Of a DNA stretch of 64,000 nucleotides, positions 3,912 to 63,661 are shown piece after piece. Position 1 is the first letter of the stretch. The number at the start of each line of letters is the position of its first letter. The position numbers and the translations under genes are program-made. The stretch spans positions 102,989-166,988 of the forward strand of contig JBBHKE010003030.1 of assembly GCA_037447655.1 (NCBI GenBank), read 5' to 3'. This DNA is from Zygnema cylindricum (taxonomy: Eukaryota > Streptophyta > Zygnematophyceae > Zygnematales > Zygnemataceae). The notes below the pieces were generated by a model. It had not been told where the DNA came from. It was given only the letters and a program-made list of their open reading frames with translations, and did not search any database.

Positions 3912-5097
3912 TGTTGATATTTGAGTATTTTCTAGGTCTTTATAAGGATAGAAAAAGCGTAGAGGCAGTCTGCCTCTAACTCCCTTCTCCAAACCCCCAC
4001 ACTTGTTGTAGTCACTGAAGGCTGGAAAGGGAGCTAGAACGATGACTGCCTACGCTCTCCAAAGAGACAGGTGTTGATAAATAGTAGGTTTACTAAAATG
4101 GATATTGATGGATCCAGTATTTGATCTTGAAACCTACTGTCCGTCAAGATTCCGATAGCTGGTAGCTTTGTCCGTTAAGCTTAGGACTAGTGCTAGTACA
4201 TATGGGGTTTGATATGTATTTAAATATTTCGAAGTAGACTAGTTCACAAAACGCGAAATATAAACGTAGTGCATAGTTTCAGTTATAGATAGTGCAGAGT
4301 ACGGTTTTATATATTGTATAAAACGCATATCGCGTATTTGTTTCGAACGCGAAACAAATACCGCGCGGCTATTTTCAACGGCTAAATTTATAGCTGGATA
4401 TGATCGGACGGCCACGATAGGCGCCGCCATCGCGATGTATGTACTTTTGGCATTTTACGGCCATTGGCACGTCAAGTGACACGTGGCACGTCAACATTGG
4501 ATTGCGGCGACTCCGAAGATTACGGGAACAAATAGGGATATGACATGTGTCGACATTTCGACCATATTGTACGATGGTCGTACAGAAAGTACACCGACAC
4601 CTGTACTTTTCTGTATGGTAAAGTAAAGTGATTGGTGCCGTACGTCAGTAGATAGGGTCTTAGAGAAAGAATAGGACTTAGAATTTCTTGGGTAGGTAGT
4701 CGCCTCTCCCAGAGAGCATCTTGTATAAAAGGCAAAATTTGCCAGCCATAACTATTAATTATCTTGGCCATTTTAAGTGATTCATTTTGCTGCGGACTCA
4801 GGGGAATCCAGCCTACACAGGGGTGTAGTCGGTCAGAGTTTTTGTTTGCAAGGGTGGCTATATTTATAAGGGAAAGTCAAAGTGGGTGAATGTGTCTAAA
4901 ACTCATATTCTAACTTTGCATTCTGTGGTGGAACTGAGCACACAGAAAGTCTTATTTCATAGGGGTGAAGCTATAATGGGGTTTTGATTGTCAAGGGGTC
5001 AATCATTTGGGTTAATATGAAGTTGGAGTCGGCACTATCTAGATTAGCTTCTTTTGGATCTGCGATTTCTGTGGGCAATGGAGCACAAAGAGTTTCA
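3912..5097 (+). repeat. 5' LTR of copia element H (family alpha)
   Basis: A 1186-bp LTR running from TGTTGATATTTGAG to AAAGAGTTTCA, followed at once by a primer site. The antisense tRNA-like segment lies around 4109-4185. The gag ATG at 5078 is inside the LTR, 20 bases from its end. Confidence 0.8.
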
Positions 5098-6142
5098 GGT
5101 TATGGGCCCACCATCTATGGTGCCTATGTTCGATGGAACAGACTACACTTATTAAGAGTTTACGACGGAGGGAATTTCTTTTCGAAATGTACTTATGGGG
5201 AATTGTTTCGGGACGAGTGAGGTGTCCACCATCGGGCTTTCGAGGAACTCACTACGGAGAATCATCTGGGCTTCTCAAAAAACCAATCGTATTTTAGATG
5301 CAACGGAAGGTGAAGGGAAAAATATTGCCATGGAAAGGGAAAAAAGGGAGAAGGATAAAGGGACACCTATGGTGAGGGGAGTTATGCTCTCCGCCATAAC
5401 TCCACTTAGAGGGTTATAAGTAAAATTGAAGAAAATGATAATAAAATTTGGGAGTATAAAAACACTATAGCAAAACATCTTATACTTAGAAATGTGTCTA
5501 AGTCCAGAGCTATCACTCTTTTGAATCTAACCAAGTCTTCGGAAATTTGGGAAACACTACGTCAGATTTATAAGAGTGAGACTATTGAGAGGCAAAAATT
5601 AGTAAAACAAGAAATAGAGGCGTATGTTTATAAAGGCGGTAGCATGATAGAGTTTTGAAATGATACTGCTGCGTTACATGTTGAGCTTGCTAGTGCGGGA
5701 TATGTAGAATCTGGGGATAGGAAGTTTAGACACTCCTCATGAAACTCCCGTATGAGTACGAAAACATCATTTGTCGTATTTAGGCAATGGATTGCTCATC
5801 ATGGACTTGGAGCTTTACCATGGGGATAATTCTTGTAAGGGAAAGCACTTTGGAGCTTTGTAGGGGAAGTGACAGGGTGAATGCATTTACAGATGGTGGT
5901 GACGGGCGGAAGCGTAATGAGAGCAACTGCGATGACGAGCACAAGCGTGATGAGAGGAAGAAAGACAAAGGTAAACCATATCGGAACTTTGGTGGAAAGA
6001 GAGGGAGAGGAAAAGAAACGGGAGCTTTGAAAAACGGGGTTTGCTTCTTTTCTATGGAATCGGGATATTATATAGAGGAATGCCCTTGTTTGGAAGAACT
6101 TAGAAGTTGGAGTGTGGATGAGGAGGAAGAAGGGGAAGAGGG
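5078..6142 (+). pseudogene. Copia H gag, broken and cut by element C
   Basis: Starts MEHKEFQVMGPPSM, using the ATG inside the LTR, and meets a stop after MFDGTDYTY. The gag body continues in that frame (GNCFGTSEVS) and then in others. Near 5640 a block matches the element-G gag (GGSMIEF versus GGNILDFCNEL). From 5787, MGIILVRESTLEL matches VGMILVRENTIEI of G. A degenerate zinc knuckle around 6044-6080 has lost its second Cys (CFFS). Translation runs into the LTR of element C at 6143, and the rest of H is not in the window. Confidence 0.75.
5098..5112 (+). promoter_or_regulatory. Primer binding site of H, initiator tRNA-Met anticodon arm type
   Basis: GGTTATGGGCCCACC abuts the LTR end CA. It is the exact complement of the anticodon stem-loop of eukaryotic initiator tRNA-Met (GGTGGGCCCATAACC). 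Internal, half-tRNA priming of this kind is known for Drosophila copia and yeast Ty5. The same bases are read as gag codons Q-V-M-G-P. Confidence 0.85.
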
Positions 6143-7935
6143 TGTTGTTTTTGGAAGATTCAGTTTCGCACATGTGTGCGTGTATTTCGTGCGTACGTAA
6201 TTAGTTTTTTTATGTGGAGGTTCGAATGGATTTGCGGATTGGAGGTTTATTGTACGAGTAAAATTAATTGACTAATTTAGTGGCGCGGAATGCGTAAGTG
6301 AAATAGACGGCGGATCGCGAAGCGATCCGATGTAAAATATTCTGAAAAGTTAAAATAGTACGTCGCACGTACTAAATAGAATGCCACAGACGACAGCTAG
6401 GGAGAAGGTACAGTGAATCTTTTTTGGACAAGTATACCTTTATTTCGGCTGGCGGTATTTATGACGAAGTACGTGGGTACGGTACGGTTTGATTTGGATG
6501 AGTTGACGCCGTTTCGTCAACTGGACTTTCGGGCCACGTGGAGCAACATCAAGGGTGACAAAAAGAGTGACAAAAAGAGTGACGGACGGCGGACAAAGGC
6601 CGCCGTTGTTTTCAAGTAGTGGTGACGCGAAATCGCGTCAATCACACGATATTTATTTTTGGACGTCCCGGATGCTTTGACGAGATTCGCGAAGTCTTGC
6701 TGATTTATTCGCCATGACTCACCATAAGATTTTGTGTACCTGTAAATATTTGGAACAACATTGGTTTGCCTTATTTGTATTAAATAATTAGAGTTGATTA
6801 TGATGTTTATATGGCCAATTAGGGTTTCAGCAGTCTAATTTGTGTGTCGTATTTGCAGACAAGTGTACGCTTATGATTGCCTGACTTTCATGTGTACGCT
6901 AACGATTAGTTTATTCTTAATAGTAGGTTATCATGTTTAAATAGGAGATAATGATAGTTACGTTGGTTAGTTTGACATGTAGCGATTTGTTGACAACTCA
7001 TAAGTGTATATATAGATTTGAGCTTCATTAGGATAATCATCAATGCTTGTTAAGAAAAGTGGGAACCAAAGATGTAGTATTTTAGGGTTGTCGATTAGGT
7101 CATGCACTTTGAATGATATAATGATTATTTGATTATACTTTGATTATACTTTTGTTTATGTGTAATGCATTTGTTTGTTATTATTTATTTATGTTATTTT
7201 ATATATGTTTGATATGCATTGTTTATGCATTTGTCTTAGGGTTTGCTTATGTTGATTATTCCATCAAACCAGTTGTTGTATGTTAAATGGAGGATGCATT
7301 TCAAATGATTGTTCATTGGCCTAGCTTCGCTTAGCATTTTGCATAATAGTTTGGGTGGCTTCTGCGGTCTATTTTAGACCAAAGAACAACAGTTACAACA
7401 TTTTGTGTATGGTTCAATGTGTGTAAACATTTGAATAACATTAGTTTGTAGTTTAGTGTGATATAAAATAGTGTTCATTAATCAGGTTTTTAGAAAATTG
7501 TGATTAGGGTTTTTGAGGTACAATGACGTACGGGTAGGATGCTTTGTCGTTAGTCAGGATAAAAACCGTAGTAACGGTTACCCAAATTAGTGTAGATCAG
7601 TAGATACACACTGTGAGTATATAACTTAGGACTTAGCCAATTTTGTTGTATCCAGTTTTGGGAATATGATTTTCTAAGGGCAGTTTTTTTGGAAAATTCT
7701 AGACATCATATCTAATGGTTTACTTGGTCATTGGGGCTGCAGATTTAGGAATTGTCATTTTAATGTATTTTGTATCACTGTGGCATATTTGAAGCATATT
7801 GGTTGTTTGAATTATATTTTGTGTCAGTTCTAAGTTGGCTGTTGAGTAGGTACTTTGATCGTTCTTGTTGTTTTTCATGTCTACTTCCACTACTACTGCT
7901 GGTTCTCCGCCTGCAACGGTGGTTGTAGAATAACA
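6143..7935 (+). repeat. 5' LTR of copia element C (family beta), long
   Basis: Runs from TGTTGTTTTTGGAAG to GTAGAATAACA, followed by primer site GGTTATGGGCC (7936-7946). The left flank GAGGG (6138-6142) is the expected target-site copy; its partner was not found. At 1793 bp it is much longer than the beta LTRs of D (940 bp) and E (1002 bp), so unrecognised inserts are likely in 6.7-7.8 kb, which holds no coding signal. The gag ATG at 7877 lies 59 bases before the end. Confidence 0.7.
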
Positions 7936-8835
7936 GGTTATGGGCCTTTCGTCAAGAATTCCTATCTTCAATGGCCAAAAGTATGCGTACTAGGCGGCGA
8001 TGGTTGAATCGTCGTTTGAAACTGCTGACTTATTGGGGGTCTTGGATGGCTCCCTTGATGAAACAGATCCAACTTGGGCGAAGAGGAATTCAATGGCAAG
8101 AAACAATCTAATTCTTTGTATTTTAGAAAATTTGGTCATGTCTCGACTTAAAATGAAGAAGGCGAGGGAGATTTGGACATCCCTCAAATCCGCTTTTGAG
8201 AAAGTGAATGTTCAAGAGGAACTCTTGGTGGCTGGAAAAATTTGGGGATACAAATACACGGGGGGAACTATGGTTGAGTATTGTGACAATTTTTGCGCGC
8301 TCATTGATGCTCACTCTTCTGCTGGGGGGTCATTTCCTGAGTTTCAACAGGCAGCTTTGTTCATTAGAGGTTTCCCTAGTAGCATGAAGGGTGTGTTTGT
8401 TCAATTAAAGAGTCATGATAAAGCTAGCTGGTCATTTTAGTTAGCGTATAATTTTATATTGGAGGAAGAAACAAATACTAAACTCCTTGAGGGAGAAGGA
8501 AAGGTTGAAACAAATCAGTTTAATCAGAATAGGAATCAGTTTAACCAGAATCAGAATCAGTTTAATCGGAGGCAGAATAGGCCATCTACTACTACTTGTT
8601 TCTATTGTTCCGAGAAGGGTCATAAAACACAGGTACTGTCCTAAATTGAAGAAGGCTAACGAGACAGGTTTATACAAGCCAAGTTGGCAACAGAGTCAGT
8701 ATCACAGAGGTTTTTTTGGAAATCCTTCCTTGTGGGAATGCTCTTATTTCAGCTTTGCAACTGATGCAGATGAGTCTCTCAGCTTTAATGAGAAAGAAGA
8801 GACGGATTTATTTGCTATGGCGGCTGCCATAGAGG
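7877..8835 (+). pseudogene. Copia C gag with zinc knuckle, broken
   Basis: Begins MSTSTTTAGSPP inside the LTR, reads through a TAA where relatives have CAA (E-stop-Q), then the primer-site codons QVMG, then SSRIPIFNGQKYAY and another stop. The frame 8000-8440 is typical copia gag (VDGSLDETDPTW-type, ARNNLILCILENLVMSRL, AREIWTSLKSAFE, QQAALFIRGFP). After a stop at 8438 comes a Gln/Asn-rich linker with repeated FNQNQNQ. The zinc knuckle CFYCSEKGHKT then shifts frame before RYCP, giving CX2CX4HX4C across two frames. The tail ends at GGGTCCA, where element D is inserted. Confidence 0.85.
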
Positions 8836-8884: not shown

Positions 8885-10937
8885 CTTTAAAAGACATGCA
8901 TGTAATATAAGTTTTCCAAAGTTATGATTTCTCTAAATTCACATTCTTAAAAAAAAATGTCCTCCAGAAAATCATTTCTCTCGCTCTCTTATCTTGATCA
9001 CTTTCTGAGCATGTTTTCTTCTACCCTTGATCCTTTGAATATTACATCTTCTTTTTGTTTTCTTCATGATTTTTTGTCTTGTTTGAAAGTTTACATTTCT
9101 GTCACAATTTTCTACTTGTTTAATGTCAAAAATACTAGTTTTATGTTTCACCTTAATGTTTTTCTCCATAGATTTGCTACTCCCATCAACTTCATTCATC
9201 TGAGAAATTTTAATTTTGATTCTTCTTCTTTTCAGCTGCACTCTCTTAACTTTTGCCTATCTATTACATTTTTCACTCCCACAAACTTCTTTTCTCACTC
9301 CTGAAACTCTGAGACCTCCATAAGTCCTCAGAGTAGACAGCTTCCAAGAAGCCTCTAGGATAATCCTGACCCCTTTGTGTTCCAGCAAAAATAACTGCCA
9401 CCCTGGCAGACAAAAACCCTGACCACCTGCACCCCTGTGAAGGCAAGACTCCCCTGAGTCAGTAGCAAAAAGAATCTCTGAATTTGCTCCCCTGAGCAGT
9501 AAGTTATGGAGGGTCAAAGTTGACCTTTTGTACAGAAGCTCTCTGGGAGAGAGGGTCCTATCTTCTAATTTTTCTAAGTCCTATCTCTCTCACAGACTCT
9601 ATCTACTGATGTACGGAACCAATCATAATTGAGTTCCGTACGCAAAAGTACAGCCGCCGGTGTACTTTCAGTACGGACATTGTACGACATGGCCTAAATG
9701 TCGACACATGTCAAATCCGGATTCGGTGCCATAATCTCCGGAGATTCTACAATCCAACGGAATTTCGCCACGCGTCATCCGATGTGGCGATGGCCACAAA
9801 CCGCCGAAATCTTCCTCCGCGATCTCGGCGCTAATTCCGGCCGTCCGATTAAATTCAGATTTAATCGTAGCCGTAATAAATACATGCGCGGTATTTATTT
9901 CACTTCCGAAACAAATGCGCGGTATTGATTCGTAATCCGTACCGTCATCCGTACCGGATCTATGTATCCCGTAATCCGTAACAGTTAAATGAATTTATCG
10001 TACGTATACATCTTTAAATTATTATCAAACTATATAGTACCTAACACTAATCCTAGACTTAACGGCTAAGGCTACCGGCTACTTCCTATCTGCCGGCCGG
10101 TAGGTACAGTGATCAAATCCTGCCGCCGGCACATATCTTTTAGATAAATAAATAAACCCTAAAATAAAATTCCCGTAAACCTTAGGATAGCCAAGGTAGC
10201 CATGGCTCTAGCTTCCTCTCCAATGTCTCAGTGACTGCGACAAGTTTGAGAGTTGGAGAGAGAAGTTAGAGGTAGACTGCCTCGGCTTCTTTCTATTTCT
10301 ATTTAGACCTAGAAAATACTAATAAATCCATTAGTTTCTACAACTCCAATTTTCTGAACAGTTTTTCTTTGTTTTTCTTGTAGTTCACCAATTTTCACGG
10401 CCACCTTATTTCTAGTTTTTGCTTCTAAGTGTCCATCTCTTCCTTCAACTCCTCTTGCTTTAGTTAACAAACTTTCTTGTAAGCAATTTTCACTTACAAA
10501 TTTGTCATCTGATAAGGTCACAGAAATCGTGTCCTTCTCTCTTTCGTCCTTCACCATACTATCTTCGGTGACATAACTCCTTCCACCAGTTTCCACATTA
10601 TACACCTCATTCCTAATTCGAGTTTTCTTCATATCTTCGCCCGGTCCTTCTAGAAAAACTGGGTTTATTTTATTAGTCTTTATGTTTAAGTATTTTCGGT
10701 TTCCACTTCCAAGTGACCTTCACTTCCTCTAATTTCTCTTACTTCAAACAACTCTTCCTCCTGTAGCTCTTTGTTACTCACCAATATGACGTCTGGAAAA
10801 GGGACAGACACCAAATCCTTTTCTGTCACCTCCTCCTTTACTCCATTCCAAACACCACAGAAGGTCGGTAAATACATAAATTCGCCAACACACGGTGTAT
10901 GCCTTTTGTCATTTGTCGAGTCTTGTCTCTCACTCAC
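8885..10937 (-). pseudogene. Non-pol internal region of element D, unknown proteins (interrupted by a solo LTR)
   Basis: Downstream of gag, three lysine/glutamate-rich open stretches occur on the element strand: 10937-10686, 10632-10309 and 9241-8972. The first two share a repeated segment: VSNKELQEEEL...GSEGHLEVETEN and VSENCLQESLL...GRDGHLEAKTRN. They therefore look like duplicated units of one acidic, charged protein. Nothing resembles copia pol. The product is unrecognised. It could be a diverged structural protein, captured host sequence, or simply purine-rich DNA left open by chance. Confidence 0.35.
9302..10342 (-). repeat. Solo LTR (family alpha) with perfect target duplication
   Basis: A 1041-bp LTR flanked by ACTCC at 9297-9301 and 10343-10347. 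On the minus strand it runs TGTAGAAACTAATGG to CAGAGTTTCA, which fixes both LTR ends for the family. It keeps the internal gag start ATGGAGGTCTC 20 bases from its end and the antisense tRNA-like segment (10054-10132, B box GATCAAATCC). It arose by LTR-LTR recombination after insertion into element D. Confidence 0.9.
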
Positions 10938-10972: not shown

Positions 10973-11737
10973 CTAGTGTGTTGTCCCATCCATCTCTAAA
11001 ATTCCCTGTAACACATACACTTTTATACGATGGACATACCCTGAAGGTATGTCCGAAATCATTACAGTAAAACAATTCTTTGGCAGATCTCCGAACTCAC
11101 TATTACCTTTAAATTTCTGAAACTGAGACTTAGATTCCTTTATATTCCTTTCACTTGATAAGACCTTTCTATTAGCCTCTTCATCTAGAATAACTTGTCT
11201 AGCTACAGTTATGCTCCAATCATTTTTATCAATTAAAGTCAATCGTTCTAGTGCACTCTTATATTCTTTAGGTAGACTTCTCATTAACAAGATAGCTTGT
11301 TGAGCAACTGTAAAGTTTCCTCCTGCCAAATCATTTTCTGCAAATAATACTTGTAAGTCAATACAGTGTTTCTCCATACTACCTCCTACATGCTTGTGTT
11401 CAACTATTTTGGTAACATTGCTAAGCCAATGATATAAAGACGTCTTTGTATACATACTTTCTAAGCACTTCCATAATTCAGCTTCCTTTTTAACACTTAG
11501 GTATGACATTACTAAATCTAGAGCCAAGGAGTTCTTAATAACCCTTAGACACTCATGATTTTTACTTTTCCATCCATTTGACGTTTCGGCCAAGGAACCG
11601 TCCACCACATCCATTAGTTCCATCATCTCGAAGTAGCTCTCGAGTGCACACTTCCAGTAGTGATATTTTGATCCATCAAATATAGGTAGCCATGGGTGTG
11701 GGCCCGTAACCTGCTGTCCATAGCCTCTTTCAGCCAT
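10973..11737 (-). CDS. Copia D Gag-like protein
   Basis: 254 codons open. Residues 1-13, MAERGYGQQVTGP, span the LTR end and primer site. Then come the gag signature PIFDGSKYHYW, VVDGSLAETSNGW, a helical capsid-like region with LWKCLESMYTK and QQAILLMRSLP, and WSITVARQVILDEE. The zinc knuckle starts at KNCF but a frameshift puts CNDFGH-type residues and the last Cys in another frame, so the reading frame ends in a short wrong tail. The start is the ATG in the 5' LTR, chosen because every relative has the same arrangement. Relatives normally continue into protease; this one does not. Confidence 0.75.
   Translation of the reverse strand: MAERGYGQQVTGPHPWLPIFDGSKYHYWKCALESYFEMMELMDVVDGSLAETSNGWKSKNHECLRVIKNSLALDLVMSYLSVKKEAELWKCLESMYTKTSLYHWLSNVTKIVEHKHVGGSMEKHCIDLQVLFAENDLAGGNFTVAQQAILLMRSLPKEYKSALERLTLIDKNDWSITVARQVILDEEANRKVLSSERNIKESKSQFQKFKGNSEFGDLPKNCFTVMISDIPSGYVHRIKVYVLQGILEMDGTTH
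11697..11711 (-). promoter_or_regulatory. Primer binding site of D
   Basis: On the minus strand GGTTACGGGCCCACA directly follows the LTR end GGACAGCA. It has two differences from the complement of the initiator tRNA-Met anticodon arm. It is also read as gag codons for V-T-G-P. Confidence 0.75.
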
Positions 11738-12651: not shown

Positions 12652-12656
12652 GTCCA

Positions 12657-13775: not shown

Positions 13776-14777
13776 TGTTGTTCTATGACAACTGGTGCAG
13801 GTGGAGCTGCAGCAGTAGTAGTAGAAGAAGACATAGCTTAAGCAGAAGCTTTTCAAGAAGTCCCCACAAAAGACCTATTATTCACCACTTCAATATCTCA
13901 CAGTTTACTGAACTTTATCACACTGTAGATCCAGACTCACAGAACCCAATTAGCACACAACTTAGCACATAAGAACCTCAGCATACACACTGTTAACTCC
14001 CAAAGTTACAGCCAAATTGACACAGTAGACCATAAGATACAGGACCTGCAAGTTTCCCAAAAACTGCCTTTTGGTTTCCCTTATCCCAAAACTGGATACA
14101 AGAATATTTCTAAGTCCTAATCTTTATACTCTGAGAGAGCATCTACTACGTATTAGCCAATCAGATGTCAGTTACCTTGAATAGTAGTACTATACGATAG
14201 TACGACAAAGTACCCTAGTGTAATTCCAGAAGCTAATTCCAACTAGCCTAAAAAATGAATAGTGAAACACTATTTTCTAAAGCGCTACACTACAAAAATA
14301 ATCTCTTCAGGTATTTACAAATATGATGCCGTACATATAATGTTGCTTTGCTTAGTCAGCAACCTAAAATACTTCGAACCTGCTGTGGTAAACTTGTACG
14401 ACTATCTGGGACGCTTACGAAGCTCCTCGTCATCTGTGGTCCCCCTCAGAATTTCCCGCCGTTAGTCTGATGTGAATCAACGTCTGGTATTTGCTTTTTG
14501 GTATCACTGTTCCCAGATGTCCGAGCTAATTTCCGTCCGCTCGATCCGACGAATTCAGTCGTCCAATAGATGACATGTGGCCATGACCATTCCGCATTTC
14601 CTATACTGTCTAAAAAGCCGACGCATGTATATGTGACCGTACTAATACTCTTTAAAAAACATTCTACTGTCACACTATTTAAGGTAAGTACTACAGTTCA
14701 AACTTCATAAAATATTCTAAGTACTTAAGCTTCCCTCACAGCTCTATATACTAAAGACAAAGCTTTCAAAAACAACA
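13776..14777 (-). repeat. 3' LTR of copia element E (family beta-2)
   Basis: On the minus strand it runs from TGTTGTTTTTGAAAGC (14777), right after the polypurine tract TAGGGGAG, to ATAGAACAACA (13776). It contains an in-LTR gag start coding MSSSTTTAAAPPAPVV, 59 bases from its end, in the same phase as in other families. Left target-site flank AGTGT (13771-13775); its partner was not found. Confidence 0.8.
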
Positions 14778-16250
14778 CTCCCCTAAAGCTTTAGTCTCAG
14801 TTATTCAATTAGACCAATAGCCTTTCTGCAAAACTATAATTTAGGTGCAGGAAGAGCTTTAGTTAGCATATCTGCAACCATATTTTCATCCGGCAAATAG
14901 CAGATTTTAATGACCTTTGCAAACACATTCTCACGGACAAAATGCAGTCTGATATCCATATGTTTGCTCTTAAAGTGATGGCTGGGGTTAGAGGCTATGG
15001 CAATTGCTACCTGGTTGTTGCTGTTGTTTTGGAAAGCTTTAGTCCTCTCTATGCCTCGATTGTGAGAGAGAGAGAGTTTCACGACTTAGCATATGTTTGG
15101 TTGTAAGTTCGTTTCATTACACACCAGAATTGATGTTCCACTAGATCGGTAGGGAGTACACCTTTGTATACACTCCCAAGACACAAGTCACTACAAGAAA
15201 GAAGACACTCCAGAATATCCGATTGTTTGTGCATAGATATACTTGAGGACAAAATGGCACATGGAGATTTGTCTACGGTGCCGAATGTGATATGTACGCG
15301 GCTGAGGGAGACCACCGACAAATGCTGGTCCGTGTGAACCACATACACGACAAATGACGTGGCATATAGAATTCTACTCCTTTGTAAAAATCAAGTTAAG
15401 TAGATTTTTGTCTTTGTGTGGTTAGTTGATTAGTAAAGGAATCTTTTTGTGTGACGTACCTTGTTCGGTTTGAGCCGTAGGTATTTATTGTACGGCTGGT
15501 ATTCCTCCGTACGTTCAGCAGCATAGGCTTCAGTGTATATTAGTAGGACTTAGATAACTTTGAAGTTATGAACATTTTGTAGTCAGAAACTGTACAGCCT
15601 GTTTTTGGCATTTTCATCTGTGGATATCTCACAGATCTGTTGGCAGAATTACTTGAAATTTTGTGTGTGTGTTCATCCTGATATTATCTACTTTGTGGTA
15701 GATTTGCAGAGCTATTGTGTCTCTGGTTTGGGTTTTATCAACTGTTGAAGTTGCTGTTTTTCAGACCGGTTTTTGTGAAAGTTTCTTGCTTGGTTTGGTT
15801 CCGAGATGACTACACCGGCATCCTCATCGTCTTCGGTTCCGGTTGTTGTCTCAGAACAACAACTTTCGGCTGGGAATGTCTCCATAACTCGCGTCACTCC
15901 ATGTGCCGATTGTTACACTTGATCCTCCCACGTTAAGATCTGAATTCGTGGTCCCAACTAAGTATCGCATAACTCGCTTTGCAGCTTCCCAATCTGTCTT
16001 TTTCGGATTCTGCAAACTCCTGCTTAGAACCCGACTTTTGCCGCAATATGGGAACGCATACAATTCACAAAGTAGATAAGACTTCCCACTACTTGTCTAT
16101 AAGGAATTTCAGTCAAATTTTCATTTTGTGTTATGTCTCTAATTATAAATCTTGTGATGATTTCTAGCCTTTCAGCTTTGTGTTTATTTTCCATTGGAGT
16201 TGCACTAATTTTTGCATCTGACATATCAAATCTGTTTAGCATATTTTTGA
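14778..16250 (-). pseudogene. Copia E RT C-terminus and RNase H, split by a solo LTR
   Basis: Two pieces on the minus strand. Right piece (16250-15862): KNMLNRFDMSDAKISATPM, IPYRQVVGSLIYFVN, then WEAAKRVMRYLVGTT and the RNase H block GTWSDASYGDIPSRK. Left piece (15093-14834): NNQVAIAIASNPSHHFKSKHMD to ADMLTKALPAPKL. About 50 residues of RNase H, including the second catalytic block, are missing between them, so the intervening LTR insertion came with a deletion. The RT catalytic core is absent because F2 interrupts at 16250. Confidence 0.75.
15094..15861 (+). repeat. LTR (family beta-2) inserted in RNase H of E
   Basis: Starts TGTTTGGTTGTAAG, similar to beta starts, and ends CTCAGAACAACA. 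An ATG at 15806 opens MTTPASSSSSVPVVVSEQQ with 56 bases to the LTR end, the same phase as elsewhere. No matching 5-bp target duplication is seen, in keeping with a deletion at one side. The CACTACAAGAAA string at 15187 is probably chance. Confidence 0.6.
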
Positions 16251-17153
16251 TGCAAGTCTGTGGTCTCCATTGACCCAGAGAATGAGTAGCCAATGTAAAG
16301 CCTTTAGGATAATATTTTCCCCTTCTACTTTCCCTCTGAATAAGTGCCGCCCATGCACACAAATATCTTGACCACCCTCACCCCTGTGAGGACAAGACTC
16401 CCTTGAGTCAAACGCAAAAAGAATCACAGAATTTGCTCCCCTGAGAAGTAAGTTATGGCTGGTCAAAGATGACCTTTATAGTTACAAGCTCTCTTAGAGA
16501 GAGGTACCTAAATTTCACTAAGTCTTTGTCTGCCTACTTACGACTGCCTACTACTAAACCCTAGTCTAATACAAACACTATATAGTACAAGAAGGTACAC
16601 TTGGCGATGTACTTATAATACAGTCATTGTACGACATGGCTTTCAAAGTGACGCTTGTCAAAACGGGAGCCATGGTTCCTCCTCCCATCTTCTCCGGTAT
16701 CTAATAGTATGGTGCCACGTGGCGTCGCGTGACGTTATCCCCAAAGGCCGCCAAAATTTTATTGCGGGTGGCGGCTGCAATTGTTGCTGACCGATCATTT
16801 GTATTTATGCGGCTTCGATTTGCTTCCATGTATGAATTGATTAATGCGTGTTTTCGTTAGTCTGCTGCAAATTAGTCTGTTTAACAAATAGATGATTATA
16901 TGTGAAACGTAATACGTATATCGTTTCGCTAGTGCCTTAATGGATAAGGCTTAGGCCTAAATAGTAGTGTGTAGACCCCGGTTGAAATTCGACCAGAGGA
17001 AGTATTTTGCTACAAATAGTAAAATACCTTCTACTTCATTCTGCCTCCTTCTAAATGACGCGGCAGCCATGGCGTGCCTTTGGTTATCTTTTTCTCTCTC
17101 TTTAAATTCTAACTAAAATATAGAAGTGAACTATTAATTACCTCTTTCCAACA
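16251..17153 (-). repeat. 3' LTR of copia fragment F2 (family alpha variant)
   Basis: On the minus strand it starts TGTTGGAAAGAGG at 17153 after polypurine AAGGGGAG and ends ATGGAGACCACAGACTTGCA at 16251, again with ATG 20 bases from the end. A tRNA-like segment lies on the plus strand at 16930-16995, antisense to the element: GCCTTAATGGATAAGGC then GGTTGAAATTC. Confidence 0.75.
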
Positions 17154-18657: not shown

Positions 18658-20558
18658 TAGTGTTCCATTTAATCTTTTCGCAACTCCATTGTGTTCAAGA
18701 GAGTATGAAACCGTCAACTGGCGTGTAATTCTATGTTCCTTAAGAAAATATGAAAGCACCTGTGAGACATTCTCTCCTCCGTTATTGGACCTGAGATTTA
18801 GGATGGGGACTCCATGTATCTTTTCGCTCCAGACTTTGTATTCTCAAAAACATTCAAAAACTTCACTATTTCTTTTCAGAAAATACACCTTGGTATATCT
18901 CGAAAAATCATCCGTTTGTGTAAGCATATATCGAACTCCCCCCATGGAAGGTTTCTTTGAAAACCAAACATCCGAATGTATTACTTCTAAAACTTTCTTA
19001 GCTCTATGTCTACTTTTAATTGGAAATGGTAATTTGTGATTTTTTCCTAAAGCACATCCATCACATAACTCGTTTGACTTATCTTGAGACAATTTTACTC
19101 CTTTGATTACATCATTTTTCACCATATTCCCTAATCTCTCCCGATGAACATGCCGTAGCCTTTTATGCCATAGATCATTATCATTTGTTACAGCTCTGTA
19201 GAGAACTTTCATTCCATTAAATTCTTCCGCAAGATGAAGCCTATATATCATATTTTCCCCTCTAATTCCGACAGCTGCAACAAATCCATTCATACTGACT
19301 ACTTGTTTCCCATGCTTGAGATTTATTTCAAATCCTCTGCTCTCTACCAAAGATGTGCTAAAAAAAATTTTAAAGAACTGTGGAATATATAACATATCAT
19401 TCAAAGTCATGTCTATCATGTGACAGTCTATTTTGAGTTTGAGATTCACCTTTCCTTTCGAGTTTGCTACTACATAACTCTCATCTGCATAGTATATGTT
19501 TTGTGGTGAGATTGGCTCAAGAGTTTTAAGTAGATCACTCTCGCCGCACATGTAAGCAAATGCTCCCGTGTCCATAATCCATGTGTTTTCCTTTGGTCCG
19601 AATCTTCCACTTGTCATTGCAAACATTTCCTTTCCTGTCACAATTGGAAAATTGTTGATTTGTTTGTCAATTTTGTCTCTTCTTTCCTCTAAGACATTCC
19701 CTTTTTTGGCAGAAAAGGCAGATGCCTTCCTAGTTGCTTATAAGGTTTTCCTTTGTTGGAAGAGTGTCGGTTGTTGATCTATCCTTCGCGAAAATTTCTT
19801 GTCAATGCGTCTTTTTTTAAAACTGGACATTCTCGTACCAAATAACCCTTATTAAAGCAGTAAAAACATGACCATGTATTAGTTGATCGATCTGTCTGGT
19901 ATTGATTTATGTTTTGAAACTGAGTGTTTAATAATTGTCATGTCTTACTCCCTTTCATTGCTAGATTAGTATATTCTTCTTCTTATACTAGCTGAATTGT
20001 CATTGTTAGATTCTAGGATGACTGATCTAGTTTCTTTAGAGCATATGATGCGCCTTTTTATTCATCAGGCAAACCTCTCATAAGCAACATAGCTTGTTGT
20101 TTAGCTAGAATTACACCTCCTAAGCATGCATTTTCTAAGAACAGCTTTCTAAGACTATAACAATAATCTGAAATACGACCACCATTGTACTTTTACTCAA
20201 AAACACTTGTAGCAATTATCATTTGTCGCTGAACGTTCATATGTTGATACATATCTCCTAAGGATGTCCAAATTTCTTTTGCCTTAACCATTCGAATATG
20301 TGTCATTATGATTTCCAAAGATAGTGTCTGCATGAGCGCACTGACACATTGTGTATTCTTTTTGCGCCATGTAGGATCTGTTTCGGCAAGGGAACCGTCC
20401 ACCACATTCATAAGCTCTCTTTCGACAAAGTAGAGCTTCATGATTCCTCTCCAATAAAAGCAGTTGTCTCCATCAAACCTAGGTACTTTGGGCAATGAGT
20501 CCATAACATGTTGCTCTGCAGCAACAAGGACACTACCAAAAGCTGCAGAGTCACCCAT
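18658..20558 (-). pseudogene. Copia F1 gag, protease and N-terminal integrase
   Basis: Gag starts at 20558 with MGDSAAFGSVLVAAEQH, inside the LTR, then LPKVPRFDGDNCFYWRG, VVDGSLAETDPTW and IRMVKAKEIWTSLGDMYQ. Stops follow. A zinc knuckle near 19870 reads CFYCFNKGYLVREC, with the usual His replaced by Tyr. Protease: TWIMDTGAFAYMC (from 19641). Pre-integrase: LWHKRLRHVHRERL and CDGCALGKNHKLPFP. Integrase: VIHSDVW, TDDFSRYTKVYFLK and, frameshifted, NNGGENVSQVL and EHNGVAKRLN, ending at the MITE. The C-terminal integrase and RT that should follow are replaced by F2. Confidence 0.85.
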
Positions 20559-21766
20559 TTAATTCAGCAAAGGCAACCCAAAAGTACCACAGCAAAGGCA
20601 ACCCAAAAGTACCACACAAATGGCCAACTATGACCAGCTTACACTTAACACAATTCAAGCCACTTAGGCTTTAACACTATCAAAGCCACTTAGGCTACAA
20701 CAAAGCTCGCTGAGAGCTCACACTTAACACAATATACTAACAGAGTTTGAAGCAAAAACTCTAATCAGTCACAAAGTGACATATTCACAAAGACAACCTT
20801 AAACGTCACTTTCCTTAGTGAACTTGTACAACTTAATTTTTTCAAACGTCTAAGTCCTACTTTATACAAATACGTCAATCTAACTTCCTAACTACCAATA
20901 AGATCACTGTGGGCGCACTATCGTACTGTCGGTTCTACAAACTAGTACATTTAATCTAGAGTACAATTTTCTGCTGCGTTTAGCCCTGGTTTGTCCATAA
21001 ACATTTTAAATTGTATGGTACTAAGGGTGCGTCTCTATGTACTTCAAACTTAGAGAATTTCTTTGTTTTTTAGCGCCGATCCGGCGGACCCGGATTTTGG
21101 GTGTCCCTATGTCTATAAGGAGGAAATCGTAACTTACGCAATGACGATTGTATACGTCGACAGTACCTGTGACGGTGTTAGCGTCTACAATCCCTGTTGT
21201 CGCACGCTATTTTTTGGAACTGCTTGTGATGTCGCATGTCTTACCGTGACATTGTAGATGTACCCCATTGTAGACGTACCGCATTCCAGTCTGTGTAGTT
21301 TCACTGTTGAAGAAGATGTGTTTTGCCTTCGCATCTCCTATCTAGTCGATGTGAAATGGCATTGAAATTTCGAGACCCCTGCAAAATAAAAAGCCGAAAC
21401 GGACACAACCAAACCAATTATGTACTTTTCTTTGTCATATGAGAACGCAAACTGACAAAACATAGGGAATTCTGTACTTTTCTTTGTCCTCGAAAATAGA
21501 ATGAAGATTATCAAAAATTACGACATGTGCAAATATATGTTCCTATTTGTTTATCAAATATACCTAGTTTTAAAACAAATCACGCATTTGTTTTAATCTT
21601 AAGGTTTAAGATGACGTTTTTCGTCGTGGAAGTGGGTCGAAAAACACAAGACGACAAATTTTCGTACATCCTAAGGTCAAGGATGACGCAAATTATACTT
21701 TATAAATTTGCGATTCCTTCGTAAGGTTGAAACTTACGAGGTTAAGATCTAAGTTTTACAATAAAA
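20509..21766 (-). repeat. Probable 5' LTR region of F1; far boundary not determined
   Basis: Its 3' end is fixed by CAGAGCAACA at 20509, the gag phase (ATG at 20558, 50 bases before the end) and the diverged primer site TGTTATGGACTC (20508-20497). It includes a 25-bp direct repeat (AGCAAAGGCAACCCAAAAGT unit, 20567-20616). No convincing TGTT start is visible before element G begins at 21767, so part of this stretch may be unrelated intergenic DNA. The small open frames here have no recognisable product. Confidence 0.45.
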
Positions 21767-23095
21767 TGTAGAAATCGATGGTTATTTTATTATTTTCTAG
21801 GTCTAAATTGGAATATAGAAAGAAGCCGAGGAAGTCTGTCTCTAACTTCTCTCTCCAACTCCCACACTTGTTGCGGTCAATGAGAAGTTGGAAAGGAAGC
21901 TAGAGCCATGGCTACCTAGGCTATCCAGAGGTTTTACGAGGAGTACATTAGTTAATTTACAAATAGGTAGGTTTATTTACTAAAAGGTGTATGTCTGTTA
22001 CGGGATTTGATCCTGGTACATGCCGACCGTCAAAATGCCGGTAGCCACTAGCCTTAGCCGTTAAGTCTAGAAGTTACGATACACACTATAGGGTTTGATA
22101 TTTATTTAAATGTAAACACGTAGGAAAATTCATTTAACAACGGATGTTTACGAATACATAGATCTTGTTTTGTAAAACGTACAAATTTCTTTATGGACAA
22201 GAAACAAGTATCGCGCATTTTGTTTCTTTTACGAAACAAATACCGCAGAAGCATTTATGACGGCTACAATTGAAATTTGCATTCAAACGGACGGCCGAAA
22301 AGAAAGCCGAGATCGCGAAAGAGATTCTCGGTGTTTTGTGGTCTTCGCCACATCAGATGACACGTGGCACAATTACTTTGGATCGCGGCATCTCCGAGAA
22401 TTACGGGGTCGAATTCAGATATGACATGTGTCGACATTTAGGCCATGTCGTACAAATTCCGTACATAAAGTACACCGGCAGCTGTACTTTTATGTACGGC
22501 AATGTAATATGATTGGTGTCGTACACCAATAGATAGAGTTTGCATTCAATCGGACGGCCGAAAAAAAAGCCGAGATCGCTGAAAAGATTCTCGACGTTTT
22601 GTGGTCATCGCCACATCGGATGACACGTAACACAATTACTTTGGATCGCGACATCTCCGGGAATTACGGGGCCGAATTCGGATATGACATGTGTCGACAT
22701 TTAGGCCATGTCGTACAAATTCCGTACATAAAGTACACCGGCAGCTGTACTTTTATGTACGACACTGTAACATGATTGGTGCCGTACACCAGTAGATAGA
22801 GTTTGAGAGAGAGATAAGACTTAGAAAAATTGGTAGATAGGACCCTCTCTCCCAGAGAGCTTCTGTACAAAAGGTCAACTTTGACCCTCCATAACTTACT
22901 ACTCGAGGCGCAAATTCAGAGATTCTTTTTGCTATCGACTCAAGGAAGTCTTGCCTTCACAGATGTGAAGGTGGTAAGAGCTTTTGTTTTTGAGGGTGGT
23001 TGTTATTCGTGCTGAAAGACAAAGGGGTCAGGGTTATCATAGAAGCTTCGTGTGAGCTGCTTACTCTGAGGTCCTATGGAGGTCTTTGAGTTGCA
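21767..23095 (+). repeat. 5' LTR of element G
   Basis: 1329 bp from TGTAGAAATCGATGG to TTTGAGTTGCA. It is longer than the family norm because a 263-bp segment is duplicated in tandem. Antisense tRNA-like segment at about 22000-22070 (GGATTTGATCC; TTAGCCGTTAAGTC). The gag ATG at 23076 is 20 bases before the end. Confidence 0.9.
22278..22803 (+). repeat. 263-bp tandem duplication inside the 5' LTR of G
   Basis: The block beginning TGCATTCAAACGGACGGCCG at 22278 is repeated from 22541 with about 93-95% identity, through TGGTGTCGTACACCAATAGATAGAG. It spans the region with the repeated GTAC-rich motifs before the presumed transcript start. The 3' LTR of the same element has one copy (28490-28762). 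Confidence 0.85.
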
Positions 23096-28423: not shown

Positions 28424-29071
28424 CAAGAAAAAAGTACCGTGCATTTTGTTTCTTTTACGAAACAAATACCGCACAAGCATTTATAACGGCTACGATTGAA
28501 ATTTGCATTCAATCGAACGGTCGAAGAGAAAGCCAAGATCGCTGAAAAGATTCTCGGCAGTTTGTGGTCATCGCCACATCGGATGACACGTGGCACAATT
28601 ACTTTGGATCGCGGCATCTCCAAGAGTTACGGGACCAAATCCGGATAAGACATGTGTCGACATTTAGGCCATGTCGTACGAATTCCGTACATAAAGTACA
28701 CCAGCATCTGTACTTTTATGTACGGCAGTGTAATATTATTGGTGTCGTACACTAGTAGATAGAGTTTGTGAGAGAGATAGGACTTAGAAAAATTGGTAGA
28801 TAGGACCCTCTCTCCCAAAGAACTATTGTACAAAAGGTCAACTTTGACCCTCCATAGCTACCCTCCATAGCTTACTGCTCAGGGGAACAAATTTAGAGAT
28901 TCTTTTTGCTATCGGCTCAGGAGAGTCTTGCCTTCACGAGGTGAAGGTGGTCAAAGCTTTTGTTTGCCACGGTGGCTGTTATTCGTGCTGAAAGACAAAG
29001 GGGTCAGAGTTTTCCTAGAGGCTTCGTGTGAGGTGCTTACTCTTAGGTCATATGGAGGTCTCTGAGTTGCA

Positions 29072-30385: not shown

Positions 30386-30513
30386 CCTCTTGTTGGATTG
30401 GCAGGTGAAGTCAGTCTTGGCACGTGAAGTCAGTCTAATACAGGGTAGAATATGGTATATCCATACTCGAGCCGCCTGTAATAAATGGGTACGGACCCAC
30501 CAGTCTCTACATC

Positions 30514-30870: not shown

Positions 30871-30927
30871 ATTTTCCCAAGTGTGGGACATGTCGAATCC
30901 CGGATTTCACAAAAATCTAACACCTCT

Positions 30928-54815: not shown

Positions 54816-55819
54816 TGCAATTATATGTCCTCCATTGGACTACAGAATTTAGAAAGCCTCTAGATAGCTTTAAACTCACCCACTTCAAGCCACAATCACT
54901 GCTGCCCAAAAGAGCAAACATACAGTCTGACTGCACCCCTTTGCAGCTTGGACTCCTTTGAGTCCGTAGCAAAAAGAATCACTGAAACGGCAAACAAACC
55001 GATAAGTTATGAGCCGGCAAAAATGCCAATCTTAAACAAAGCTCTCTAAGAGAGAGGTGGCTACCCACCCAATTTTCCTAAGTCCTAAACCCCTCTCATA
55101 AACCCTATCTACTGGAGTACGAACCAATCACACGAGTGTAAAGTACAAAAAGGTACTACGACCGATGTACTTTCTGTACGGCCTGTGTACGGAAAGGCCA
55201 TTGAGTGGACGCTTGTCTCCATATGATTCGTCCTTATGCTCCCCGAGATTTTCGCGTTCCAATGTTATGCAGCCACGTGGCGCCAAGTCATGCCACGCCT
55301 AAAAACCGCCAAAATGGTCATTCCGAGATCTCGGCGTTAGTACAAGCCGTCGGATCCACATCGGTTTTTCATGTCAGCTGTTGAAATAAATGTATGTTTC
55401 GTTTGTTTCGTGCGTGACGTGTGCAATTATATTTTACACGCGTTCTATGTTTGCTTTCCGCAATTCCGTTAATCAGACTAGTTCTGTAAAACCATGTTTA
55501 AATAAATATCAAACCCTATGTAATGTAACGAACTCCTACGACAGACCGGTTAGAGCTAACGGCTACGCCACGCTTTGCCGGTCTAGGTTCGAGTCTTGCC
55601 GGACTCAACCTTTTGTTGAGAGTGACATAAGTCACTCTTTAGTCTTTCCTGTTGAACTAAGGCAGCCATGGCTCAACCACCCTCTCTATCCTTCAATGAC
55701 TACAACAAGTATGGTGGCTAGAGAGAGGAGGTGGAGGTAGGATGTCTGCCCTTTTCTTTTCCTTTTATGTTGATCTATTTTGACCTAGGAAATACTATAT
55801 AAAACTAGTAATTTCAACA
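54816..55819 (-). repeat. 3' LTR of copia element K (family alpha variant)
   Basis: 1004 bp. On the minus strand it starts TGTTGAAATTACTAG after polypurine AAAATAAAGGGAG and ends GGACATATAATTGCA. The in-LTR gag start is kept at the right distance (20 bases) but now has an in-frame TAA. Left flank AGAGA; the partner lies outside the window. Confidence 0.8.
55545..55607 (+). other. tRNA-like segment in LTR K, antisense to the element
   Basis: GGTTAGAGCTAACGGCTACG followed by CTAGGTTCGAGTCTTGCCGG. B box GGTTCGAGTCT at 55586-55596, one base off consensus. The T stem is imperfect and no acceptor stem forms. Confidence 0.5.
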
Positions 55820-58238: not shown

Positions 58239-59291
58239 TGAAACTCTGAGACCTCCATAAGTCCTCAGAGTAGACAGCTTCCAAGAAGCCTCAGGATAAC
58301 CCAGACCCCTTTGTGTTTCAGCAAAAACAACTGCCAACGTGGCAGATAATAACTCTCACCACCTTCACCCCTGTAAAGGAAAGAATCCCCTAAGTTGATA
58401 GCAAAAAGAGTCTCTGAATTTGCACCCTTGAGCACTAACTTATAGAGGGTCGAAGTTGACCTTTTCTATAGAAGCTTTCTGGGAGAGAGGGTCATATCTC
58501 CTAATTTTTCTAAGTCCTATCTCTCTCACACTCTATCTAGTGATGTACGGAGCCAATCAGATCACAGTTCCGTACACAAAAGTACAACTGCCGGTGTACT
58601 TTATGTACGTACACTGTACGACATTGCCTAAATGTCGACACATGTCATATCCGGATTCGGTGTCGTAATCTCCAGAGATACCACGATCCAATGTAATTTC
58701 GCCACGTGTCATCCGATGTGGTGATGACCACAAACCGCCAAAATCTTCTTCCGCGATCTCGGCGCTGATTTCGGCCGTCTGATTAAATTCACATTTAATC
58801 GTAGCTGTAATAAATACATTTGAAGTATTCGTTTCGCTAAAGAAAGAAATGCGCGGTATTGAATTCTTATCCGTACCGTAATCCGTACATTTACATTACC
58901 AGATCTATGTATCCCTTAAACAATTACAGTTAAATGAATTATCCAACATATTAATGTTTAAGTAATTATCAAATCATATAGTTCGTAACACTACTTCAAG
59001 ACTTAATGGCTAAGTTTACCGTCTACCGGCTGCTTGCCGTCCGGGAGGTACCAGGTTCAAATCCTGTGGTCGGCACATATATTTTTAGTAAATAAACCCC
59101 TAACTAATATATATTTCCCGTAAACCTCAGGATAGCCTAGGTAGCCGTGGCTCTAGCTTCCTCTCCAATTTCTCAATGATTGCGACAAGTTTGAGAGTTG
59201 GAGAGAGAAGTTAGAGGTAGACTGCCTCGGCTTCTTTCTATATTTCTATTTAGACCTAGAAAATAATTTAAACAGACCATTAATTTCTACA
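58239..59291 (-). repeat. 3' LTR of copia element L
   Basis: 1053 bp, on the minus strand from TGTAGAAATTAATGG to CAGAGTTTCA. It interrupts the integrase of K; left flank ATATT (58234-58238). In-LTR start ATGGAGGTCTCAGAGTTTCA, 20 bases to the end. Confidence 0.9.
58999..59076 (+). other. tRNA-like segment in LTR L with canonical B box
   Basis: D-arm-like AGACTTAATGGCTAAG at 59000-59015 and exact B box GGTTCAAATCC at 59054-59064, followed by a tRNA-like 3' end GTGGTCGGCA. Antisense to the retrotransposon. The acceptor stem does not close. Confidence 0.6.
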
Positions 59292-62586: not shown

Positions 62587-62640
62587 AACCTCATCTAAAA
62601 GGATCTTATCGTCCTCGTCTTTGGATTCCGCCTAATGTAC

Positions 62641-63661
62641 CTATGTCACAAGGGCCTTTTTCTTTCCTCTTAGGGTACCACCGGTTTGCCCCTCCTTTAA
62701 ACGAAGCTCGGTTAGTTTAGTGCACTCTGCCATATAGTGCCCAGGTTTCTTACAAAAATTACATAAACCTTTGGGAGCCCTTGGTCCGAACTCGTCGGTC
62801 TGATTTTTTTGCTCCCTCCCCCTATAGTTTCCGACCGGTTTCCGCGAATCATTGTTCCTCCAATCGGGCGCAGTTGCCAGGGCTTGGCCACTCTTTCCTC
62901 CCCTTCGGATCTCAATCGTATTCTCCCAAATGAGAATCATCCCTACCACTGAGTTCCATATCCATCTTGAGTCCGGCAAGTCCTGCACACGGTTGACTAT
63001 GTTCTCGAACTCATCGGGTAACTTCATCAGTAAACAGTTAACCTTTTTTTTTTCACTGAAATCTTTTCCCGCACTCTCTAGCTCCATGAAGATTGTAGCA
63101 AGCTCATTGCAAAAATCCAACATCTTCCCCCCTTTGTATACATACTCCTTATCTTTCTTATCAGCCAACTATTGTTGCTGAATCGTACCACTTTGGTACA
63201 TCTCTATGAGAGCCATCCAAAGATTGGATGCCCTTTCTACCTGCGAATGAGGACATGCAAGTCCTTGAGTGAGATGTCGTAGGATGAAGTGTTTTGCCGC
63301 CATATTGTTAAAGTCCCAGGTTTCTGTATCATTCTCCTCGTTCCTCGGAACAGGTGACATGAATGCCGAACCAGTTGCTATTGGTGTGGTCGTCTCCTTC
63401 TCCTTTCCTTTGTCCACCACCTCTCCATCCTTTGTTTCCTTCGTTGAAGATGGATCCTCTTTCTTGGTGAATCTGTTTCCTACAAACCCTAGAGGGATTT
63501 CCAAGACTTGACGGACGCCCCAACCTTCCACTCACTATGCCCCAAAACCTTTTTCCGCATAGAGCTCCTATCATCATACTTTCCCAGTATATGAAGCTAG
63601 TTCCATTAAAAATTGGTACCCTAGAGGGTGGGCCCATAACCTTAAACTCTGACACCTCCAT
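62641..63661 (-). pseudogene. Copia L gag with intact zinc knuckle
   Basis: Starts at 63661 inside the LTR: MEVSEFKVMGPPSRVPIFNG. A frameshift near 63480 leads to VVDKGKEKETTTPIATGSAF and WDFNNMAAKHFILRHLTQGL. A stop near 63169 follows QQQL. The next frame (63168-62641) runs KLPDEFENIVNRVQDLPDSR, VGMILIWENTIEIRRGG, then the complete CCHC knuckle CNFCKKPGHYMAEC near 62760-62720, and basic GGTLRGKKKALVT. Two lesions only. Confidence 0.85.
63627..63641 (-). promoter_or_regulatory. Primer binding site of L
   Basis: On the minus strand GGTTATGGGCCCACC follows the LTR end GAGTTTAA (CA has mutated to AA). It is a perfect complement to the initiator tRNA-Met anticodon arm and codes V-M-G-P. Confidence 0.85.

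Follow-up and report, generated by a model that had tools for sequence, protein, structure and literature searches.

Where does Gag begin in the copia-type elements of Zygnema cylindricum? Long terminal repeats (LTRs) are described as non-coding (PMC8515867). For the window, by which we mean the whole 64-kb stretch of DNA analysed here, the original prediction held that each LTR with a fixable 3' end carries an ATG 3n+2 nt before that end, and that gag starts there and reads through the primer site. The 16 LTR ends counted, designated by the letters of their elements, carry the following starts.

1300..1319, plus strand: A, LTR-encoded gag start, 20 nt to the LTR end, no primer site after it
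5078..5097, plus strand: H, LTR-encoded gag start, 20 nt
7877..7935, plus strand: C, LTR-encoded gag N-terminus, 59 nt, in-frame stop right before the LTR end
9302..9321, minus strand: S (S9302), LTR-encoded start in a solo LTR (candidate LTR 9302-10342, exact 5-bp TSD)
11712..11737, minus strand: D, LTR-encoded gag N-terminus, 26 nt
13776..13834, minus strand: E, LTR-encoded gag N-terminus, 59 nt, no primer site after it
15806..15861, plus strand: I, LTR-encoded start, 56 nt, no primer site after it
16251..16270, minus strand: F2, LTR-encoded start, 20 nt
20509..20558, minus strand: F1, LTR-encoded gag N-terminus, 50 nt
23076..23095, plus strand: G 5' LTR (G5), LTR-encoded gag start, 20 nt
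28404..28423, plus strand: J, start carried by the solo LTR 27888-28423, which is inserted into the G 3' LTR
29052..29071, plus strand: G 3' LTR (G3), start copy
54816..54835, minus strand: K, start copy, 20 nt, in-frame stop
58239..58258, minus strand: L 3' LTR (L3), start copy
63642..63661, minus strand: L 5' LTR (L5), LTR-encoded gag start, 20 nt
63740..63759, minus strand: L 5' LTR (L5b), second start copy, the LTR tail being tandemly duplicated here (~98 bp)

As predicted, a 3n+2 ATG precedes the LTR 3' end in 16 of 16 cases, at distances of 20 (11 ends), 26, 50, 56, 59 and 59 nt; L5b is the end of the duplicated tail within the L 5' LTR and not a separate LTR. The frame from the ATG to the LTR end is free of stops in 14 of the 16, the exceptions being C and K. 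In dinucleotide shuffles, done for 13 of the 16 ends, a stop-free in-phase ATG arises within 62 nt with a chance of 0.10-0.35 per LTR, and the joint chance for H, D, F1, E and I, taken as five LTR families, would be ~1.4e-4 if these were independent, which they are not fully. ATGs are depleted in the 100 nt preceding the start, with 1 observed versus 9.4 expected across six families.

Since U5 belongs to the LTR, 3' and solo LTRs bear an idle copy of the start, and the solo LTRs carry this codon along with any promoter. Solo LTRs had been placed at 9302, 27888 and 58239: the first belongs to the candidate LTR 9302-10342, the second is where a solo LTR begins (its 3' end is at 28423), and the third is best read as the 3' LTR of L itself. 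The N-terminal peptides said to differ between families are without detectable similarity where they had been named, but C and E share one. The LTR at 15806 (I) has no DNA likeness to C and E (z 0.3 and 1.8), and its peptide likeness to them is by eye only.

With a copia-type gag and an integrase upstream of the reverse transcriptase (RT), the elements belong to the Ty1/copia superfamily (Pseudoviridae). The Pfam domains matched are PF14223, PF00665 and PF07727, and in G the integrase (24565-25356) lies upstream of the RT (26149-26879). Gag stretches connected with the LTR starts are as follows.

7936..8509, plus strand: C, gag in frame with the LTR ATG, together with a primer site of which 11 nt pair
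10976..11737, minus strand: D, 254-aa gag reading frame that is open from the LTR ATG, Pfam PF14223
20196..20558, minus strand: F1, first open stretch of gag, beginning at the LTR ATG, Pfam PF14223

The first ATG of the gag ORF in D (PF14223 at 4.9e-14) is the LTR ATG, and an in-frame stop lies two codons 5' of it. At the primer site, gag is homologous between families (37% for D vs C, 35% for D vs F1). As sequence, this is the Ty1-type layout, with the beginning of the gag ORF encoded in the LTR and the primer site inside that ORF. Translation of Gag thus very probably starts at the U5 AUG of the 5' LTR and runs on across the primer site into the capsid, as originally proposed; the genome-wide phase and the 254-aa ORF of D both agree with this. 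In these Ty1/copia elements, whose primer site matches half of a host initiator-type tRNA-Met, transcription would begin at a TATA box about 320-375 nt 5' of the LTR end (a start site placed from sequence), and ribosomes would reach the LTR AUG and read the LTR codons, then the primer site, then the conserved capsid start. The phase of the LTR ATG would be fixed by the frame at the primer site.

The remaining primer sites in the window are these.

5098..5113, plus strand: H, primer-binding site, 16/16 nt pair with host tRNA-Met nt 24-39
11696..11711, minus strand: D, primer site, 3 mismatches vs host tRNA-Met
23096..23111, plus strand: G, primer-binding site, 16/16 nt pair with host tRNA-Met
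63626..63641, minus strand: L, primer-binding site, 15 nt paired

Against nt 24-39 of the host tRNA-Met, which looks like a plant tRNA-Met, H and G thus pair throughout, L and C in runs of 15 and 11 nt, and D with 3 mismatches. Complementarity to the anticodon arm of the initiator tRNA is the Hemivirus-type arrangement; F1 is excepted, pairing poorly with 6 mismatches in 16 and so falling outside half-tRNA pairing. The pairing is with tRNA nt 24-39, not with the tRNA 3' end as in Ty1 proper. Half of the host initiator-type tRNA-Met therefore appears to be the putative primer. In the commonest families the primer site reads Gln-Val-Met-Gly, and it seems to be doubly constrained, by tRNA pairing and by protein coding. 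The junction codon had been expected to be always Gln; it is Gln in 4 of the 6 primer-site-bearing elements, Lys in L and His in F1.

Across the 352.8 Mb genome, the primer-site sequence CAGGTTATGGGCCCA has 6237 matches, versus 9 for a reversed control. In the first 100 of these 6237 places, taken in contig order, any ATG within 100 nt and open to the LTR end falls at 3n+2 in 82 places, at 3n+1 in 21 and at 3n in 2. Random phase, named in advance as the refuting outcome, was thus not found. Counting the outermost open ATG alone gives 82, 19 and 2 in the same sample, and in 15 of the 21 cases at 3n+1 the ATG is a second one, 10 nt from the LTR end and mostly within the 26-nt leader. By exact distance, the sample holds 2 ATGs at 19, 76 at 20, 0 at 21 and 14 at 26. 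An open 3n+2 ATG within 100 nt is missing in 18 of the 100 sampled elements. The LTR codons that would be read number 7 to 20 in the window families, 36 in L160 and about 51 in L101. With 6237 primer-site matches, and an in-phase start in 82 of the 100 places sampled, a large group thus appears to encode the Gag N-terminus in the LTR, and gene finders that seek gag 3' of the primer site would overlook its actual beginning.

The shared phase had been taken to argue for selection. We rejected phase as evidence independent of gag homology, since 3n+2 is simply the gag frame at the primer site, and one inherited arrangement would therefore yield a shared phase. Selection on the start and the frame of the LTR-encoded leader is nevertheless supported by three other comparisons: a diversity step at the ATG, the leader lengths of C/E, and a gag-less family in which the 3n+2 ATG is absent. 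The BLAST match between C and E begins exactly at the ATG and stops at the LTR end (79.7% over 59 nt, E 7e-11). Among 36 C/E copies, nucleotide diversity drops at the ATG, from 0.504 over the preceding 20 nt to 0.071 over the following 20 nt (gapped, from 0.41 to 0.09). Leader lengths of 53, 59 and 62 in C/E vary mostly by whole codons, and indel-shifted leaders occur in three of 70 sampled places.

These data also bear on the reading that the primer-site AUG is the sole gag start and the LTR ATG fortuitous. Such an AUG has a good start context and adjoins homologous capsid sequence, but the C/E conservation step sits at the LTR ATG, 59 nt upstream, the C/E leaders differ by whole codons, D has no AUG at its primer site, and the phase excess of 82/21/2 would be left unexplained. 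We consider this reading very unlikely.

Selection on the residues themselves, for which dN/dS of the LTR-encoded codons had been proposed as a check, is at most suggested in C/E, where pN/pS in the leader is 0.58 (interval 0.32-1.06) and 0.95 and 1.17 in the two shifted frames. The synonymous excess in the single pair C/E is not significant (p 0.09). With pN/pS of 1.17 in the 20-nt type and 1.68 in the 26-nt type, purifying selection is not seen, and no constraint on residues is detectable in the shortest leaders.

The gag-less family came from a second sample, the first 70 of 865 places in contig order, three of which are shared with the 100-place sample. Division by LTR-end motif gave 19 gag-less places and 51 others, and reassignment of L173 and L192 by sequence changed this to 21 and 49. 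No gag was found within about 1.5 kb in 11 of 11 gag-less places tested, and two positive controls matched. Although it retains the LTR end and the primer site, this family has an open 3n+2 ATG within 100 nt in 0 of 21 places, and an open 3n+1 ATG in 17 of 21; the claim that every copia family here starts gag in the LTR was therefore too broad. The family serves as a natural control that separates tRNA pairing from coding constraint. It also tells against the conserved LTR tail being an integrase end or an RNA-structure signal, with the ATG and its phase as by-products. Families do resemble one another in the last ~8 nt, which may indeed be an integrase end, but the C/E match extends over 59 nt and starts at the ATG, and pN/pS is lower in frame than in the shifted frames, albeit with an interval reaching 1.06. 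We find this explanation hardly credible.

How ribosomes would reach the LTR AUG depends on the promoter, for which four sites were located.

4724..4731, plus strand: H, TATA-like box, 374 nt 5' of the LTR end
7599..7663, plus strand: C, LTR island common to C and E, containing the TATA box 7618-7625
14084..14147, minus strand: E, LTR island common to E and C, containing the TATA box 14121-14128
20859..20866, minus strand: F1, TATA box, 358 nt 5' of the LTR end

From these boxes in C, E, F1 and H, located 318-374 nt 5' of the LTR end, we infer that transcripts start 5' of the LTR ATG. All four elements have short upstream ORFs in the interval from this predicted start to the gag ATG, and one in H overlaps the gag ATG out of frame; simple first-AUG scanning would therefore be insufficient. 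The context of the LTR ATG is mostly not strong; among 76 copies belonging to the 20-nt type, 10 have a purine at -3. The primer site, in turn, contains an AUG because it complements the CAU anticodon of the initiator tRNA; this AUG is in the gag frame, and its purine at -3 and G at +4 are inherent in the site's own sequence.

It is possible, though we hold it only tentatively, that two in-frame AUGs are used, with the LTR AUG giving a longer Gag and the primer-site AUG being reached by leaky scanning, which would add to the LTR start and not replace it. The contrast in start context favors this, as do 7 of 80 copies of the 20-nt type that have an in-frame leader stop, three of which retain at least 111 open gag codons past the primer site. 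Gag is likewise in the frame of the primer-site AUG in four contaminant elements described below (L018, L015, L019 and L029). On the other hand, gag is open in D despite a primer site without AUG, the gag of L024, an element whose LTR end is uncertain, does not share the frame of this AUG, and the ORF that the primer-site AUG opens runs to just 4-12 codons in L015, L019, L029 and L024. The stop-bearing copies are scattered in the tree, with no lineage spreading with the stop, and we accordingly rejected the idea that they form a lineage started at the primer site. More speculatively, and in our view rather improbably, the anticodon of a half-tRNA primer may write a fixed second start, either in the gag frame or as a short upstream ORF; here it would be in frame and give two Gag N-termini, and competition between ribosomes and tRNA annealing could balance translation against reverse transcription.

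Initiation in the LTR itself has a precedent. In Saccharomyces Ty1 (genus Pseudovirus), the primer site lies within the GAG ORF (PMC4974528), and a 53-nt 5' UTR with the primer site at nt 95-104 (PMC5454406) places, by our arithmetic, the ATG 41 nt from the LTR end, again 3n+2. The likeness is one of layout and phase; Ty1 is primed by the 3' end of a full-length tRNA, whereas the Zygnema elements pair with the anticodon arm, and the hosts differ. Half-tRNA-iMet priming is described for the hemivirus-type elements copia, Ty5, 1731 and Osser in PMC1181622 and PMC5371799, and primer sites complementary to half tRNA-Met for the plant Ty1/copia lineages Osser, Bryco and part of Gymco-II in PMC6317226; the likeness of both sets to the Zygnema elements is one of the primer site. 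What appears to be new is an LTR-encoded gag start combined with half-tRNA priming in a plant-like host.

Protein searches for Gag relatives gave no match at E <= 1e-3. The 15-mer occurs at 9 places in IMG/VR, none copia-like by translation, a longer pattern had no match in viral or genome contigs, and RT searches of viral contigs confirmed no copia relative. An RT profile search of GTDB contigs returned 21 contaminant loci, of which we used five with a half-tRNA-like primer site (L015, L018, L019, L024 and L029) and five with a full-tRNA site (L010, L011, L012, L016 and L023); the other 11 were left out because no primer site was located. The LTR of L011 is unreadable because the contig begins at the primer site, and the LTR end of L024 is uncertain. 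We rejected an LTR start of gag as a rule for every half-tRNA element, since gag begins after the primer site in L015, L019 and L029. L018, an intact copia element from a eukaryotic host, present as a contaminant in a Corallococcus assembly, has the same layout as the Zygnema elements, from which it is distant in the RT tree: a half-tRNA-like primer site, a TATA at -160, just one LTR ATG beyond it, at -59 (3n+2), and a 1464-aa ORF read through the primer site. Pfam recognized no gag in its first 394 residues. Its LTR (candidate 403 bp) is present once, and the last 77 nt of it are repeated at the ends of its contig.

Many nested Ty1/copia elements, mostly decayed, lie in the window, with gag (PF14223), integrase (PF00665) and RT (PF07727) domains. 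In six of them (H, G, L, C, D and F1) a primer site or its remnant lies immediately 3' of the LTR, and ten more LTR ends, one of them a duplicated tail, were placed by likeness to these six, that of I by eye via its EQQ-type end. The original prediction placed an ATG at 3n+2 nt from each LTR end, i.e. in the gag frame at the primer site, and this is what we find at all 16 ends of the window:

Distance from the LTR ATG to the LTR 3' end
20 nt: A, H, both LTRs of G, both LTRs of L, the duplicated tail in the 5' LTR of L (L5b), S9302, J, F2 and K
26 nt: D
50 nt: F1
56 nt: I
59 nt: C and E

The ATG frame is open to the LTR end in 14 of the 16, with a stop in C and K. The junction codon, proposed to be always Gln, is Gln in only four of the six window elements with a primer site. 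In the 5' LTR of L, ~98 bp of the LTR tail are duplicated in tandem (window 63640-63837), without counterpart in the 3' LTR; this doubles the gag start, and the outer copy leads to a short ORF only.

A stop-free in-phase ATG at no more than 62 nt from the end occurs in 0.10-0.35 of shuffled tails per LTR (13 ends tested), and ATG is depleted in the 100 nt upstream of the start (1 observed against 9.4 expected, six families). No clear DNA likeness was found among the leaders, the LTR-encoded codons from the ATG, of C, D, F1, I and the 20-nt type (last 8 nt left out). Only C and E, and the 20-nt types among themselves, have leader DNA that is alike (last 8 nt again omitted). The gag sequences behind dissimilar leaders are homologous, at 35-37% for D against F1 or C.

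The primer-site sequence CAGGTTATGGGCCCA has 6237 exact matches in the 352.8-Mb host assembly, against 9 for the reversed control. Among the first 100 listed of these matches, an open ATG within 100 nt of the LTR end lies at 3n+2 in 82, at 3n+1 in 21 and at 3n in 2, and the predicted phase predominates. Counted by exact distance, 76 elements of this sample have an ATG at 20 nt, 2 at 19 nt and none at 21 nt. Of the 21 places with a 3n+1 ATG, 15 have it 10 nt from the end, mostly nested within the 26-nt leader; in L045 and L130 it is that of a gag-less family. Among the 18 places that lack a 3n+2 start are leaders with a stop, damaged ATGs, the gag-less family, and the family of L101, whose leader of ~51 codons is interrupted by a stop.

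This gag-less family, which has the same primer site, accounts for 21 of the first 70 of 865 host places ending GARCAACA, and served as a control. An open 3n+2 ATG within 100 nt is lacking in all 21, of which 17 have an open 3n+1 ATG, at 49 nt. In ~1.5 kb downstream, gag similarity was not found in any of the 11 members tested, whereas two C-type controls matched. The family (L139, L145, L147, L148, L150, L151, L153, L154, L155, L166 and L167), whose LTR end is conserved and whose primer site is of the half-tRNA kind, is probably a non-autonomous element. In the remaining 49 places, an open ATG within 100 nt is in 3n+2 for 45, 3n+1 for 5 and 3n for 2; L160 has its open 3n+2 ATG beyond these, at 107. 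The C/E peptide MSTSTTT...VVVEQQ forms the majority, with 35 copies at 59 and variants at 53 (1) and 62 (2); an outer in-phase ATG stands at 71 in two, and the 26-nt type accounts for four. An indel throws the leader out of frame in L158, L170 and L172, although L170 is counted within the 45 because an ATG happens to lie at 35. In L198 the ATG is lost. The F1-type leader has 17 codons in F1 (window 20509-20558) and 36 in L160, with in-frame ATSGS-like repeats.

C and E share 79.7% identity over the 59 nt from ATG to LTR end, where the BLAST match itself stops; further LTR islands common to both include the TATA region. Across 36 C/E copies, mean pairwise diversity over 20 nt is 0.504 directly ahead of the ATG and 0.071 directly behind it (ungapped; the gapped values are 0.41 and 0.09). 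Selection on the residues of the LTR codons is at most suggested, and in C/E only. There, pN/pS is 0.58 (0.32-1.06) over 28 distinct leaders, compared with 0.95 and 1.17 in shifted frames, and 0.40 in the first gag codons. With values of 1.17 for the 20-nt type and 1.68 for the 26-nt type, only start and frame, and not the residues, look constrained in these leaders.

A TATA box with a common motif behind it lies 318-358 nt from the LTR end in C, E and F1, and a TATA-like box is present in H at 374 nt; no TATA box was seen at a comparable position in D, I, S9302 or the 5' LTR of G. Where the box is present, transcription would by inference start 5' of the gag ATG. Between this putative start and the ATG of gag are short upstream ORFs; those of C, E and F1 all stop ahead of that ATG, and in H one overlaps it.

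A pattern search, confirmed by ARAGORN, gave six host tRNA-Met genes, one of which was compared with the primer sites. Those of H and G pair over 16 of 16 nt, L over 15 and C over 11, while D has 3 mismatches and F1 pairs poorly, with 6 in 16. Counted in the host gene, the predicted 3' end of the primer falls at nucleotide 39; PMC1181622 states nucleotide 40 for half-tRNA-primed elements, and Ty5 likewise begins from internal cleavage of initiator tRNA-Met (PMC5371799). The primer-site AUG, complement of the CAU anticodon, is in the gag frame and has a better start context than most LTR ATGs. At G000:C262 4189-10971, four CAACA-plus-primer-site places, equally spaced at ~2255 bp on one strand, suggest an LTR element arrayed in tandem.

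Ty1 gag starts within the 5' LTR (PMC3522557) and the primer site is located in GAG (PMC4974528); by our arithmetic on coordinates in PMC5454406, its ATG is 41 nt from the LTR end, in the same phase as here. An LTR-encoded gag start read through the primer site is therefore a known arrangement. In the portions of the open-access literature consulted, we found no description of it combined with half-tRNA priming in several LTR families of a plant-like genome.

Outside the host genome, 21 contaminant copia loci were found. Among them, L018 has a half-tRNA-like primer site and a candidate 403-bp LTR with a TATA at -160; the one ATG after it in the LTR is at -59 (3n+2), with a stop 8 codons upstream, and a 1464-aa ORF runs through the primer site. 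L018 does not fall near the window elements in the RT tree, in which support for the deep forks is poor. With similar primer sites, L015, L019 and L029 have their gag start 152, 110 and 59 nt past the LTR, and L024, whose LTR end is uncertain, at +147 in a different frame. Among five elements with full-tRNA primer sites, the first long ORF is 79-97 nt downstream in L010, L011, L012 and L016; that of L023 begins with an ATG composed of the last A of the LTR and TG of the primer site. An LTR start is therefore present more than once, yet not universal.

The same leader codon is an in-frame stop in 7 of 80 sampled 20-nt-type copies, scattered on the tree:

Copies with the same-codon leader stop, some with open gag downstream
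Host loci: L039, L040, L042, L062, L069, L077 and L122
Window: 54816-54835

In three of the seven sampled copies, gag stays open for at least 111 codons. The recurrence may reflect a hotspot, gene conversion, or tolerance if the primer-site AUG can serve as a Gag start.

Elsewhere in the window, 30417-30922 holds two tRNA-Gln (CTG) genes within a direct repeat of 221 bp whose copies are 92% identical, and a degraded copia integrase/RT that is more distantly related lies at 42755-44564 (+).
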